DNA of 35,000 nt from Blautia argi (GTDB lineage Bacteria > Bacillota > Clostridia > Lachnospirales > Lachnospiraceae). Both the position numbers and the translations under genes were made by a program. Within the stretch, counting starts at the first letter, position 1, and each line of letters opens with the position of its first letter. The notes beneath the pieces were generated by a model. It ran no database searches. It was not told where the DNA came from and saw nothing but the letters and a program-made list of their open reading frames with translations. Location: assembly GCF_003287895.1 (NCBI RefSeq), contig NZ_CP030280.1, positions 1 through 35,000 of the forward strand. Direction: 5' to 3'. Below, one piece after another: positions 1,995 to 31,439 of this stretch.

Positions 1995-3836
1995 TTATCC
2001 CCGCTTCGCCCAGATAAAACCATGTCCGGGTATCCGCACATCTCTCATTTCCATGGATTTTCCTGTCAAAAGATTCTGATACACGCCCTCCTCCTGTATC
2101 CACGCAGTTTTGTCCTGACTGCTGAAATTAAAGATTCCGAAGAATTTCTCTCCGTTTCTTTCTCTCAGAATACAAAGTATGGAATCCTCATGCACATCAT
2201 AAGTATACACATCAGCCTGTGCGTCAAACACCGGCTCCTGTCTGCGGATTTTCTCCAGTTTACCCAGACCTTTGAACAGTTTTCCCTCTACCGTATCCGG
2301 CTGATTCCGTTTTTCTGCCAAATCCCAGCAAAATGCTCCTCTGTGCAGATATCTGGAATCCTGACACTTTAACGGATTCTCCTTATAAGTGTAATCATTC
2401 ACCTGACCGATTTCATCTCCACTATAGAGCATGGGAATCCCGGACTGGGTGAGCATATAGGCATGAAGCATCAGATCCAGTTCCACTGCCTTTTCTATTT
2501 TTTCCGGATTCTGTTCAAATCCTGCGCTCTCTACACCACACATGGAAGCCGTTGTTCCACAGAATCTGGCATCCTGTGTCACCGGGTCATCGTTATAAAG
2601 TTCTCCCCTGCTTACGCTGCCCTCATATTTCCCGGTAAAGAAATCATTTAAGTACCGTTTATGAGGAATTTCCTCCATTCCCCAGTCCTTCAGGGTATCG
2701 AAATCCAGTCCCCAGCCAATGTCGTCATGGCACCTCAGGTAATTGAGAAACGTATACTCCTTAGGCAGGGCATTCACCACGTCCATCTGCTTTTTCAGCA
2801 AGCGGATATCCTGTGTTGCCAGACTGTGCCAGGTGGTTGCCATGGTGGTTACGTTATAAAGCATATGACACTCCGGCTTTTCCACGGTTCCGAAATAAGG
2901 CGCCACCTTTTCCGGCTCCATCACCACTTCTCCCAGCAAAATCACACTGGGACACACAATCTCCCCGATAATCCGCATCATTCTCACAATGGTATGTACC
3001 TTTGGCAGATTTCTGCAGGAAGTCCCCAGTTCCTTCCAGATATAAGGCACTGCGTCAATGCGGATAATATCCATTCCCTGATTGGCAAGATACAGGAAAT
3101 TATACATCATTTCATTAAAGACTCTGGGATTCTGATAATTCAGATCCCACTGGTACGGATAAAAGGTTGTCAGCACATAATGGTTTAATTCCGGCAGATA
3201 AGTAAAATTTCCCGGGGCAGTTGTGGGAAATACCTGCGGCACGGTTTCCTCATATTTCTTCGGTATCTCATCACTGTCATAAAAGAAATAACGGCTCATA
3301 TACTCCCCGTCGCCCTGTCTGGCTTTCTTTGCCCATTCATGGTCTTCTGAGGTATGATTCATAACAAAATCCATACACACATTCATATTCTTTTTATGGC
3401 ATTTTTCCGTAAGTTCTGCCAAGTCCTCCATGGTGCCAAGCTCCGGATTTACTTTCCGAAAGTCTGCCACTGCATATCCGCCGTCTGACCGCCCTTTGGG
3501 AGAATCCAGAAACGGCATGAAATGCAGGCAGTTGACATTGCAGGACTTCAGATAATCCAGCTTTTCCTCAACGCCCTTTAACGTTCCTGCAAAATTATCA
3601 ATATAAAGCATCATACCCAGCATGTCGTTTCTCTTAAACCACTCCGGGTCTTCCTCCCGCTTTTTATCCCTGTTTTTCAGACTGACTTTTCTCGCCTTAT
3701 AGTATTCATACATCTGACCGATCAGTTCTGCAAACATTTCTCCGTTCCCGTACAGTTCCATATAAAGCCATCTCAGCTCGTCCTCATATTTTTCCAGTCT
3801 TTTCCTGAAAACACCGTCATTCTTTTTCATTTTCAT
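1995..3836 (-). CDS. GH13 subfamily 4 amylosucrase-like enzyme
   Basis: 613 residues, close to the length of amylosucrases, which transfer glucose from sucrose onto an alpha-1,4-glucan and release fructose. The whole sequence follows the amylosucrase pattern: an N-terminal helical part (1-75), then the catalytic barrel with DGGYAVADFRKVNPELGT (118-135) and DFVMNHTS (156-163). The nucleophile is Asp261 (RIDAV), the acid/base Glu303 (LLGEVV), and His370-Asp371 (RCHDDIGW) supplies the transition-state stabiliser. A small C-terminal beta domain follows. There is no signal peptide, so it acts inside the cell. The start overlaps the end of the GH32 gene by 20 bases, suggesting coupled translation. 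It is the last gene of the operon. Sucrose hydrolase is the main alternative, since the two activities are not separable by sequence reading. Confidence 0.82.
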   Translation of the reverse strand: MKMKKNDGVFRKRLEKYEDELRWLYMELYGNGEMFAELIGQMYEYYKARKVSLKNRDKKREEDPEWFKRNDMLGMMLYIDNFAGTLKGVEEKLDYLKSCNVNCLHFMPFLDSPKGRSDGGYAVADFRKVNPELGTMEDLAELTEKCHKKNMNVCMDFVMNHTSEDHEWAKKARQGDGEYMSRYFFYDSDEIPKKYEETVPQVFPTTAPGNFTYLPELNHYVLTTFYPYQWDLNYQNPRVFNEMMYNFLYLANQGMDIIRIDAVPYIWKELGTSCRNLPKVHTIVRMMRIIGEIVCPSVILLGEVVMEPEKVAPYFGTVEKPECHMLYNVTTMATTWHSLATQDIRLLKKQMDVVNALPKEYTFLNYLRCHDDIGWGLDFDTLKDWGMEEIPHKRYLNDFFTGKYEGSVSRGELYNDDPVTQDARFCGTTASMCGVESAGFEQNPEKIEKAVELDLMLHAYMLTQSGIPMLYSGDEIGQVNDYTYKENPLKCQDSRYLHRGAFCWDLAEKRNQPDTVEGKLFKGLGKLEKIRRQEPVFDAQADVYTYDVHEDSILCILRERNGEKFFGIFNFSSQDKTAWIQEEGVYQNLLTGKSMEMRDVRIPGHGFIWAKRG

Positions 3837-20094: not shown

Positions 20095-21441
20095 TTATTG
20101 TGCGGCTGCCTTAAATAAGGTATTTAATTCCTCTTCTGCTGCCTTTGCCGCTGTTTCCACATCAGTTCCATTGGTAATAATATCCTGGAACATTTCTTCT
20201 ATAACATGCTGATTTACAATCAATCCTGCCTGAAGATTCGGACCATGTTCAAATCCAATTGCTGTTCCTCCTGGAATCTGAGAACTGATAACTTCCTCTG
20301 CATGCTGGAACTGCTGAATGGTTTCATTGTTTTTGTATGCATCTAAATCTTCAATACCCGAAATGGATGGAAGCATACCTACTGGCTGAGATGCCAGGAA
20401 ATCCAAGTAATTTTCTTCTTCGTACAAAGTCTTGATAAATTCTTTACAAATATCCGGGTGTTTTGAATTTTTCCATACTACAATCGGCTGATTAGAGGTT
20501 GTAATTCCTTTTTGTTCGCTTCCGTCTATAGTAGGAATTGGGTAACAGTCCACATACTGTAATAAATCAGGAGAGTTCTGCTGAACACCGCCAATCTGGA
20601 AACCTGAATTAAAATCAAAAGCTGTTTTTCCCTGATAATATAAGGTTGCCTGGTCTAAAACATCATAATTTACAGAATCTTTTGGTGAACAGTCTTCATA
20701 AACCTTCAACCAATAGTTAATTCCTTTAATTGCCAAGTCACTGGTTAAGTTTGCTGTCAAATCATCATTTAAAAGGCTTCCACCACCGCTTCTGACATAG
20801 AAATTCAGGAAGTTTGTTGCCTGAAAATCATTGGAACCGCACGGGAAGGATAAACCGTAAACACCGTCCTTTGTCAGCTTTTTGGCTGTTTCATACAACT
20901 CGTCCCATGTTTTAGGAACTTCCAGCCCATTTTGTTCCAGCAAATCCTTTCTTACCCACATAACCATTGCATGAGAATATAATGGAATGGAATAATTGTT
21001 GCCGTCTACCGTACCTTCATTGATTGCGTTTTCTGAAAACTTATCTCTTCCGATATCATCAATTAAATCATTCAAAGGAACTAATGCATCTGAATTAATC
21101 ATCTCTGTTACATGTCCAACTAAGGCAGTACTCATATCCGGTACATTTCCTGACGCGAGTCCTGTTGTCCATTTTGTATAAAAGTCATTCCAGGAAAAGG
21201 TTTCAATCTTAATATTTACTTTCGGGTTTTCTTCCATAAACTTATCTGCTGCTGCCTGAATGGTATCTAATCTTCCACCCTGCGTAAAGGAATGCCAAAA
21301 CGTAATATCACCCTCCAGCTCTCCATCTGCATTTACAGAGCTTTTCGGTTCTTCGTTTCCATTTCCTGAATCACCTCCGCAGCCTGCAAAAGACCCTAAT
21401 GTTAAAATTCCGGCTAACAATAATGCAAGTTTCTTTTTCAT
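20095..21441 (-). CDS. Solute-binding lipoprotein of the sialic acid ABC importer (SatA-like)
   Basis: 448 residues. The lipoprotein signal has lipobox FAGC with Cys21, followed by a Gly/Asn/Ser-rich linker. The mature part is a CUT1-type extracellular binding protein (ITFWHSFTQGG near the mature N-terminus, then GKTAFDFNSGFQIGG). It is the first gene of the importer-nanOx-yhcH unit. By gene order it corresponds to the R. gnavus SAT binding protein that captures 2,7-anhydro-Neu5Ac; the ligand cannot be read directly from the sequence. AAAGGAG precedes the ATG. Confidence 0.88.
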   Translation of the reverse strand: MKKKLALLLAGILTLGSFAGCGGDSGNGNEEPKSSVNADGELEGDITFWHSFTQGGRLDTIQAAADKFMEENPKVNIKIETFSWNDFYTKWTTGLASGNVPDMSTALVGHVTEMINSDALVPLNDLIDDIGRDKFSENAINEGTVDGNNYSIPLYSHAMVMWVRKDLLEQNGLEVPKTWDELYETAKKLTKDGVYGLSFPCGSNDFQATNFLNFYVRSGGGSLLNDDLTANLTSDLAIKGINYWLKVYEDCSPKDSVNYDVLDQATLYYQGKTAFDFNSGFQIGGVQQNSPDLLQYVDCYPIPTIDGSEQKGITTSNQPIVVWKNSKHPDICKEFIKTLYEEENYLDFLASQPVGMLPSISGIEDLDAYKNNETIQQFQHAEEVISSQIPGGTAIGFEHGPNLQAGLIVNQHVIEEMFQDIITNGTDVETAAKAAEEELNTLFKAAAQ

Positions 21442-21763: not shown

Positions 21764-22621
21764 CTATTCCTTAGATATTTTCCTATACTGATTTGGAGTC
21801 ACACCAAAATATTTTTTAAATACACGGATAAAAAAATTAACATCTTCATACCCTACACTATATGCAATATCACTGACACTTTCTGCTGATAAAAGCAGTC
21901 GTCTTCCTGCTACCATCATACGCATATCTCTAAGATATTCTCCCGGGCTTTTCCCAGTCTGTTCTTTAAAAAGCTTGCGAAATCTGGTTTCTCCCAGACC
22001 TGCCATATCACATAACCTTGCAGTTGTATAATTTTCTGTAGGATGCAGTACCATAAAGTCCACAACTCGCTGGATTCTCTGATCCATTTGCTCTGTTCTG
22101 ACTTCTGCACCACCCACTACTTCCCGTTCTATTTGTTTCTCATGTTTTCCTGCCCTTCCGATAATTTTCCCAATCAACAGTTCCAGATATCCTCGAACCA
22201 GAAACATTCTCTCTGCTCCATCAGAATGTATAGCCCCATAAATCCTGTCAAAATATTCTTTTTCTCCCTTATCTTCCAATACTTCCGGCATCTGATAATA
22301 ATCTCTCAGAAAATCCCCTCCATCATAGGAAACAGACATATTAAACCGTATGCTTGTAAAAGAGAATGTATCTCCCAAAGCATGACAGGACAGCACGCAG
22401 CCCCTTGGAAGATAAACAACCTGGTTTTTCTCCACCACAAGTTCCTTCCCATCAATAATAAAAATCGCCTTTCCTGCCGTAATATAACGCAGCATACTAT
22501 AAGGGATTTTACTCTCCGGCATATACCAGGCTCTGCCAAATGAATATTTATCTACATAAAGGAAATTAATTCTTACCCCTTCAATATACGTTTTTTCGGT
22601 TCCTTCTCCGCCCTTTTTCAT
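21764..22621 (-). CDS. AraC-family transcriptional regulator of the second sialic acid unit
   Basis: 285 residues. The N-terminal cupin-like sensor domain (about 15-110) contains [19 protein letters not shown]. The C-terminal double helix-turn-helix (about 185-285) contains [20 protein letters not shown] and the AraC signature [20 protein letters not shown]. It lies directly upstream of, and in the same direction as, the importer-nanOx genes, but is separated from them by its own terminator. It is therefore likely an activator responding to the imported sialic acid derivative (inference). Its ATG overlaps the stop of the GIY-YIG gene (ATGA). Confidence 0.88.
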
Positions 22622-29921: not shown

Positions 29922-30695
29922 ATGAAAGAAAAAATTTACACAATCCCTCTTATGGACGCTTTCCGCGCCCAGGACGAATGTCCCTTCTGCTTTATTGAGC
30001 GGAATCTGGAACAGCACGCCATAGATTTTGTGCTGGGTTCCGGTGCTTCTTATATGGAAGACGATGTCCGTGCCGAAACAGATAAAATGGGGTTTTGCCG
30101 CACACATTATAAAAAAATGTTTGACTATGGAAACCGTCTTGGCACAGGTCTGATCCTCACCACCCATTTCAAAAAGAAAAACGAAGAGCTGAAACAGCAG
30201 ATAAAAATGTTCTCCCCTGCCAAGGCTTCCATGCTGGGGCATTTCAAAAAAACAAAAGTAGATTCTGAGAACCCTCGTACCAACATTGGCGCCTGGGTAA
30301 AAGAACAGACCTCCACCTGCTATATCTGTGATTATTACCGCAGTACCTACAACCGTTATCTGGATACCTTCTTTGAACTCTATCGCAAGAATCCGGAGTT
30401 CCGGGAACTCTTTCAAAATAGCAAAGGTTTCTGTATCCCCCATTTTGCAGATTTAGTAGAAACAGGGGATACGCTTCTTTCAGACAAAGAAAAGCAAAGC
30501 TTCTATACTGACCTTTTTGCTCTTATGACCGAAAACCTTCAGCGGGTGACCGATGACCTGGAGTGGTTCTGCGACAAATTTGACTATAAAAACAAAGATG
30601 CGGACTGGAAAACCTCCAAAGATGCAATCCAGCGCGGTATGCAAAAAGCAGCCGGCGGCTATCCTGCAGACCCGGTATACAAAGCTGAAAAATAA
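29922..30695 (+). CDS. DUF6062-family protein with two Cys/His modules
   Basis: 257 residues, soluble, no signal peptide. It matches from memory the DUF6062 family of Lachnospiraceae, whose function is not known. Two equivalent metal-binding-like modules are visible: Cys20, Cys23, Cys59, His62 and Cys133, Cys136, Cys171, His174. Both follow CxxC, about 35 residues, GFCxxH, which suggests internal duplication of a zinc-binding unit. AAAGGAG precedes the ATG. It is divergent from the MATE gene, stands alone, and is followed by the tandem RNA-like units. Confidence 0.78.
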   Translation: MKEKIYTIPLMDAFRAQDECPFCFIERNLEQHAIDFVLGSGASYMEDDVRAETDKMGFCRTHYKKMFDYGNRLGTGLILTTHFKKKNEELKQQIKMFSPAKASMLGHFKKTKVDSENPRTNIGAWVKEQTSTCYICDYYRSTYNRYLDTFFELYRKNPEFRELFQNSKGFCIPHFADLVETGDTLLSDKEKQSFYTDLFALMTENLQRVTDDLEWFCDKFDYKNKDADWKTSKDAIQRGMQKAAGGYPADPVYKAEK

Positions 30696-30776
30696 TCAAA
30701 TAAAAAGGAATTATAAAAAAAGCATAAATCAGAATTTACCTTTTTCATTTTTCTTTTAGTTTTTTGTCATAAATTG

Positions 30777-30884
30777 TCCTTATTTACATTGTATAGTATT
30801 ACTTGTAAAAGCCAATAAGACTTTTTTCAAAATCTTTTTCTTTTCATATTACTGGCAATGAGTTGCCAGTAACTCCTTCTTTTT
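30777..30884 (+). ncRNA. Candidate small RNA unit A (first of two tandem copies)
   Basis: It shares with unit B a GTATAGTAT box (-10-like, 30791-30799), then ACTTGTAAAAGCC(A/G)ATAAGAC, a T/C-rich run, CAT, a hairpin and CTCCTTCTTTTT. Unit A's hairpin is ACTGGCAA/TTGCCAGT (30851-30870). The first segment can also fold (TTG-AAAAG with CTTTT-CAA). No coding frame is conserved. No good -35 is seen, so the promoter is uncertain. Strand is assigned from the terminator tails. Confidence 0.5.
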
Positions 30885-30896
30885 TATGAAATAAAA

Positions 30897-30943
30897 CAGG
30901 AGCAGGAATCTATCCCCCTCGGATTCCTGCTCCTGTCTTTTTA
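30897..30943 (+). terminator. Intrinsic terminator of unit A with C-rich loop
   Basis: A perfect 14-bp stem, CAGGAGCAGGAATC (30897-30910) with GATTCCTGCTCCTG (30922-30935). The loop is TATCCCCCTCG and the tail TCTTTTT. The CCCCCTC loop is shared with the unit B terminator although the stems differ. Confidence 0.85.
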
Positions 30944-31006
30944 TATCCCTCTTTATTTTCTGCTTTTTTCTTTTATTAAGACTTCTTTTATGATTTCATC
31001 ACAGTT

Positions 31007-31113
31007 TTATCACATTTACCCTGTATAGTATAACTTGTAAAAGCCGATAAGACTTTTTCAAAAATCTTTTTCTTTTTCATATGCCGGTATGAAAACCGGC
31101 TCTCCTTCTTTTT
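31007..31113 (+). ncRNA. Candidate small RNA unit B (second of two tandem copies)
   Basis: A direct repeat of unit A about 232 bases downstream. GTATAGTAT lies at 31023-31031, ACTTGTAAAAGCCGATAAGAC follows, and the hairpin is GCCGGT/ACCGGC (31083-31100), then CTCCTTCTTTTT. The hairpin sequence differs from unit A while its position and flanks are kept, as expected of a structured RNA. Confidence 0.5.
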
Positions 31114-31136
31114 AATATTATAAATATCAAAAAAAA

Positions 31137-31183
31137 GGAACCAGAATCAACCTTCCCCCCTCATTGATTCTGGTTTCTTTTTT
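31137..31183 (+). terminator. Intrinsic terminator of unit B with C-rich loop
   Basis: A 14-bp stem (one G-T pair), GGAACCAGAATCAA (31137-31150) with TTGATTCTGGTTTC (31164-31177). The loop is CCTTCCCCCCTCA, followed by TTTTTTTATT. Confidence 0.85.
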
Positions 31184-31189
31184 ATTACT

Positions 31190-31393: not shown

Positions 31394-31428
31394 AAAAAAA
31401 TTGACCCAAATCCTAATGGATTTGAGTC
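31394..31428 (-). terminator. Terminator of the rRNA-tRNA operon
   Basis: Reading leftward, GACTCAAATCC (31428-31418), loop ATTA, GGATTTGGGTC (31413-31403), then AATTTTTTT. The stem is 11 bp with one G-T pair. It lies 12 bases after tRNA-Lys. Confidence 0.9.
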
Positions 31429-31439
31429 ATATTTCTTAG

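Follow-up and report, generated by a model that had tools for sequence, protein, structure and literature searches.

The window analyzed here is a stretch of 35,000 nucleotides of Blautia argi (positions 1 to 35,000 of contig NZ_CP030280.1), which carries on its plus strand two units, with a DUF6062 gene (29922-30695) on one side and, on the other, a tRNA/rRNA operon that converges on them. A terminator-like hairpin on the minus strand at 31402-31429 presumably marks the end of that operon. The preliminary description of this DNA had reported two direct repeats 232 bases apart, and these are confirmed, with GTATAGTAT at 30791 and again at 31023. The succession of boxes given for each unit, namely ACTTGTAAAAGCC(A/G)ATAAGAC, a pyrimidine tract, a hairpin, CTCCTTCTTTTT and a terminator, was found as placed; the hairpins pair in the way that had been claimed (ACTGGCAA/TTGCCAGT in unit 1 and GCCGGT/ACCGGC in unit 2), and the terminator loops read CCCCCTC and CCCCCCTC, respectively. 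What the present study adds are promoter sites with an 11-bp period, an anti-start arm, a third copy in the genome and the spread of the units over the whole family. The features are as follows.

30744-30782, plus strand: unit 1 promoter half-sites (-48 TTCATT, -37 TTTAGT, -26 GTCATA, -15 TCCTTA; the proximal one degenerate), placed by the register of the family promoter alignment
30792-30797, plus strand: unit 1 -10 box TATAGT, from the sequence and the family promoter alignment
30805-30942, plus strand: unit 1 predicted small RNA, with its start put about 7 nt past the -10 box and its end at the terminator
30833-30848, plus strand: unit 1 anti-start arm TCTTTTTCTTTTCATA, maskable by the downstream TATGA, from sequence and folds
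30849-30872, plus strand: unit 1 central hairpin, from folds, with two-sided change in 2 of 7 aligned stem pairs over 11 sequences
30873-30880, plus strand: unit 1 anti-Shine-Dalgarno (anti-SD) arm CTCCTTCT, from sequence
30896-30942, plus strand: unit 1 terminator with loop TATCCCCCTC, from folds, the loop invariant in 11 of 11
30976-31014, plus strand: unit 2 promoter half-sites by register (TTAAGA, TTTATG, ATCACA, ATCACA), from the alignment, the two proximal ones also found with one mismatch in a pattern search
31024-31029, plus strand: unit 2 -10 box TATAGT, from the sequence and the family promoter alignment
31037-31185, plus strand: unit 2 predicted small RNA, from promoter and terminator; the match of covariance model R2 (see below) spans promoter and body
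31065-31081, plus strand: unit 2 anti-start arm TCTTTTTCTTTTTCATA, from sequence
31083-31100, plus strand: unit 2 central hairpin GCCGGT/ACCGGC, from folds and covariation
31102-31109, plus strand: unit 2 anti-SD arm CTCCTTCT, from sequence
31131-31185, plus strand: unit 2 terminator with C-rich loop CCCCCCTC, from folds, the loop invariant in 13 of 13
20095-21441, minus strand: solute-binding lipoprotein gene with the start AAGGAGTAAGATTATGAAAAAGAAA, a candidate target by predicted pairing only

Both units fold better than all 200 dinucleotide shuffles, with z-scores of -7.4 for unit 1 and -6.0 for unit 2. The repeat is not a chance arrangement, for the tandem pair occurs in 11 of 19 other genomes of the genus. 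A further 5 carry a lone unit in a comparable location (in one genome unit 1, at the end of a contig, and in four the unit-2 kind), and in the other 3 of the 19 no locus of the tandem-unit kind was found. Within the retrieved pieces, tRNA-Lys is present in 12 of 16 same-genus loci and was not seen in those of L005, L010, L011 and L014.

For the comparative analysis, covariance model R2 was built from 28 genus units (alignment A3), with the unit-1 sequences left out and the structure set by hand from single-unit folds; RNAalifold returned no pairs on the mixed alignment A2, because MAFFT had misplaced the unit-1 hairpins there. Over the 28 genus units the central hairpin is paired in 98.8% of cells, and 4 of its 6 pairs show two-sided change. 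When both helices are taken jointly in the genus alignment, three of the five measures exceed all 500 shuffles, while the numbers of pairs with two-sided change and of further pair types do not (155 and 177 of 500). In the 32 family matches this hairpin is 98.9% paired with two-sided change at all 6 pairs, and each of the five measures exceeds those of all 500 shuffles and of six slid registers, in an alignment which favours structure because it was fitted to the R2 model. The 5' helix is weaker, being 69% paired in the genus units, which are partly misaligned, and 83% paired in the family matches. In addition, the terminator stems of window-type units vary with compensation around a constant loop CCCCC(C)TC, in all 11 unit-1 and all 13 unit-2-type sequences, these sets excluding a small number of truncated or almost identical copies. 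Genome comparison thus supports the original view of small-RNA-like units with compensatory stem changes and unpaired anti-SD segments.

A covariance-model search and a count of copies per genome had been suggested at the outset, and R2 recovers the family with three strong matches in the Blautia argi genome (30755-30884, 30987-31113 and 278579-278707, the last on the minus strand). All 20 genus genomes are matched, with 1-6 strong matches each; among the 69 matches at E <= 0.01, 66 are strong (E < 1e-5), and the three weak ones sit at a second element described below. At E <= 0.001, R2 matches 59 of 200 family genomes (58 of 199 genera) under strict filters by which weak matches are lost. Among 196 genomes of the order 5 match, all of them belonging to the same family, Lachnospiraceae; 22 listed genomes of this set are of the same family, 3 are others, and the remaining 171 gave no match. 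A scan of a wider collection gave at least 117 stretches; on 80 of these R2 was run and matched 24 loci, which are labelled as Blautia, as other Lachnospiraceae, as Eubacterium or as Clostridia/Firmicutes without closer resolution. Nine R2 matches each were observed in two genomes of another genus (G308 and G403), and one genome of the same family has three consecutive copies (L086:1144-1632, minus strand).

The promoters of the family carry a code of their own. When 32 members are aligned on the -10 box, TTCA(C)A-like signals appear at -48, -37, -26 and -15, that is, with a period of 11 bp, and no -35 box is evident in this alignment. The conservation at -48 (e.g. A at -45 in 30 of 32) was not built in by the model, since it lies outside the R2 columns. 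Two patterns made of promoter letters only found 36 and 57 sites in the 20 genus genomes and 0 in the control, and 29 of the 36 and 50 of the 57 precede the R2 family, as judged by overlap with R2 matches. The other 7 sites, identical for both patterns, are assigned by promoter likeness to a second sRNA-like element, four of them having been read; among the sites read, no protein gene was seen starting directly behind the promoter. Neither promoter in the window is caught by the two patterns, both being weak matches; that of unit 2 was found with a shorter one. In all 13 unit-1 sequences examined the proximal half-site is without CACA, and therefore unit 1 may not respond to the regulator in the way that unit 2 does. 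Judged from sequence, half-sites joined to a -10 box without a -35 box are as expected of a putative activator, probably of the OmpR/PhoB type. The Pho regulon was considered as well and rejected, for the Blautia argi pstS promoter has TTTACA/TTTAAC-type repeats which by eye are unlike the family half-sites. These repeats stand before a TATAGT box upstream of pstS (L047, ~2047-2300, minus strand) and form a possible Pho box.

The second sRNA-like class, with the same kind of promoter, was observed in other genomes of the genus at L130 (from 1501), L137 (from ~1554, minus strand), L118 and L122 (minus strand, same register). It has a GAAGACAG(C/T)GGCTGC...CTTCGCC element followed by a U/C-rich tract, after which L130 and L137 show letters of the CCCTC type and a hairpin resembling a terminator (GCCGGTAC), and L137 holds two in tandem. 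The loci L118, L130 and L137 have no match in Rfam.

Turning to the unpaired segments, a UUUUCUUUUUCAUA-like arm precedes the hairpin and a CUCCUU arm comes after it; taken together, the two arms make up the reverse complement of AAGGAG...AUGAAAAAGAAAA, which the hairpin divides. In 27 of the 28 genus members and 28 of the 32 from the family, the hairpin is preceded by a pyrimidine tract with CAU at its end, and CUCC follows the hairpin in 28 of 28 and 26 of 32, where the family counts are biased because R2 includes the arm columns; the promoter-only patterns serve as an independent check. The conserved unpaired anti-SD segment first proposed for the units is thus supported, and the proposal is to be extended in that this segment makes only half of a two-part anti-start-site element. 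One may still suppose a small RNA that works by anti-SD contact alone, through CUCCUU and the C-rich loop as in LhrC, with the U-rich tract and its CAU serving RNA-chaperone binding or stability. The invariance of the C-rich loops in window-type units speaks for it, as do the ability of unit 1 to hide its CAU arm and the second class, which has C-rich anti-SD-like tracts and, in the four cases that were read, no CAU arm; however, the CAU behind the pyrimidine tract is kept at the genus and family counts just given, and we regard this explanation as unlikely, if the most serious of the alternatives.

With regard to possible targets, AAGGAG-N3-10-ATGAAAAAGA occurs 5 times in the Blautia argi genome and 0 times in the control. 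The five genes encode three solute-binding proteins, one GH85 enzyme and one protein without a Pfam match, and all five products have by eye a signal-peptide-like start. MKK starts are typical of exported proteins in general, and hence a target set of exported proteins is a consequence of the arm and no independent proof. Cofolds were computed for these five genes and pstS, six targets per RNA, and in them both arms are paired with the target while the hairpin stands at the junction. The start of pstS, the sixth test target, reads AAAAGGAG...ATGAAGAAGAAA. The observed pairing beats all 100 arm shuffles at 4 of 6 targets for unit 2, 3 of 6 for the third copy and 1 of 6 for unit 1. The mean pairing of unit 2 is -12.8 kcal/mol with 28 start regions of the window, which were chosen for having an SD, and -4.7 kcal/mol with 168 internal stretches; with shuffled arms the start regions still give -9.6 kcal/mol (p 0.0075 vs real arms), so the attraction to start regions is mostly C/U composition and in smaller part arm order. 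The top predicted unit-2 duplex of the 28 lies at the gene start at 22621 (minus strand), with -25.5 kcal/mol.

These shuffles bear also on the suggestion that the RNA is bound by protein, as a decoy or sponge for a CU-rich-binding protein and not as an antisense RNA. Multiple copies per genome, unpaired CU-rich tracts and a conserved hairpin would suit such a role, but shuffling the arms at constant composition weakens their fit to start sites, and the order of anti-SD and anti-AUG and their placement flanking the hairpin are kept, which makes it quite improbable. A switch in which CUCCUU pairs with the AGGA of the next terminator arm, raised in the preliminary description, is possible in both units of Blautia argi, and AGGA is found in 8 of 11 unit-1 arms, though at no constant position; only 1 of 13 unit-2 arms has it and the terminator stems are the predicted stable fold, so the switch was rejected as a conserved feature and we give it hardly any credit. 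Least credible of all is a minus-strand gene for a small protein starting MKKK, for although that strand shows AAGGAG, hairpin and ATGAAAAAG in gene order and a ~30-codon frame is similar in most unit-2 copies, the frames of 58 members run from 3 to 48 codons with nothing common past the MKK start and the promoter and terminators face the opposite direction, in accordance with the earlier remark that no coding frame explains the repeats.

We therefore consider it probable that the two units belong, as genes in tandem, to a small-RNA family of Lachnospiraceae that is multicopy and trans-acting, is driven by a regulator, probably of a stress type, and blocks the start of translation at two-arm sites. 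According to this model, a response regulator of the OmpR/PhoB type would bind the 11-bp-spaced TTCACA-like repeats and recruit RNA polymerase to the -10 box, which has no evident -35, and the unit would then be transcribed. The RNA would offer two single-stranded arms at the foot of the covarying hairpin, of which UUUUCUUUUUCAUA would pair in the cell with the start codon and the Lys codons (AUGAAAAAGAAAA) and CUCCUU with the Shine-Dalgarno AAGGAG. Both arms would occupy one translation start region together, with the hairpin sitting at the spacer of the target, and ribosome entry would be blocked by this pairing. A second anti-SD contact would come from the C-rich loop of the terminator in the window copies. 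The targets would be mRNAs with AAGGAG-N-AUGAAAAAG starts, largely of exported proteins and perhaps mainly those starting with MKK, whose production is perhaps lowered. As to unit 1, it looks like a weaker variant; in predicted folds its CAU arm can be hidden by UAUGA, and unit 1 may act via CUCCUU and the C-rich loop only.

Regarding novelty, a match to a known Rfam family had been named as evidence against such a reading, and in Rfam 15 none was found at gathering score for the window, 15 family loci and two genus loci. The best sub-threshold match, Plastid-psbA-2 (33.4 bits, gathering 55.8), covers bare terminator stems on both strands and was dismissed as chance. Rfam includes LhrC, and no LhrC-named family occurs among the 57 sub-threshold matches or at gathering score; none of the 57 is csRNA-named either. 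A csfG-like sporulation RNA was the first candidate to be considered. In the literature on small RNAs of Lachnospiraceae and Blautia, covered with few subscription papers, no such sRNA family was found, and the main text of two structured-RNA surveys mentions neither Blautia nor Lachnospiraceae.

The family is thus apparently a new and undescribed one, which in the best reading would work like the csRNAs and LhrC. The streptococcal csRNAs of the CiaRH regulon block translation start (PMC4507080, PMC3091779), are encoded by several related genes in one genome, partly in tandem (PMC3091779, PMC4507080), have promoter direct repeats of 11-bp period with the -10 box at a matching distance (CiaR geometry, PMC3091779) and contain unpaired sequences complementary to SD and AUG. 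Several related sRNA genes per genome, as predicted genes, and such complementary sequences are likewise found in the Blautia family, whose promoter geometry also resembles that of CiaR. The csRNAs belong, however, to another bacterial family, and the CiaR repeat is given as NTTAAG-N5-TTTAAG (PMC3091779), whereas the Blautia half-sites are TTCACA-like; moreover, csRNAs hold anti-SD and anti-AUG in unpaired regions, whereas the Blautia family splits them by a covarying hairpin and extends its arm over Lys codons. Listeria LhrC1-5 are also multicopy and controlled by a two-component system, a control that would hold for the Blautia family by inference, and they block translation start through UCCC sites, their C-rich anti-SD sites being redundant and located both in an unpaired stretch and in the loop of the terminator (PMC4132741). 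In contrast, the description of LhrC, in the sections cited, includes no anti-start arm, and its regulator is LisR, with an element described differently (PMC4132741). UCCC-type sRNAs such as RsaE and FsrA, named in PMC4132741, resemble the Blautia family in having C-rich unpaired segments, which in these sRNAs bind Shine-Dalgarno sequences; they differ in architecture, and the Blautia family has no match in Rfam. What sets the Blautia family apart is its hairpin, which separates the anti-start arm from the anti-SD arm.

A wider scenario, which we put forward tentatively and hold somewhat less likely to be right than wrong, is a Lachnospiraceae regulon made up largely of small RNAs: one response regulator would drive several sRNAs, whose hairpin-split arms would clamp AAGGAG-N-AUGAAAAAG starts, and one signal, perhaps that of envelope stress, would thereby lower exported lipoproteins as a class, with the hairpin as a built-in spacer for the SD-AUG gap. 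With its clear promoter code, covarying structure and two-part antisense site, the family allows sRNA control in Lachnospiraceae to be tested directly, together with the question whether a single anti-start-site is able to select an entire class of proteins. It would be an independent counterpart, in major gut bacteria, of the streptococcal and Listeria systems.
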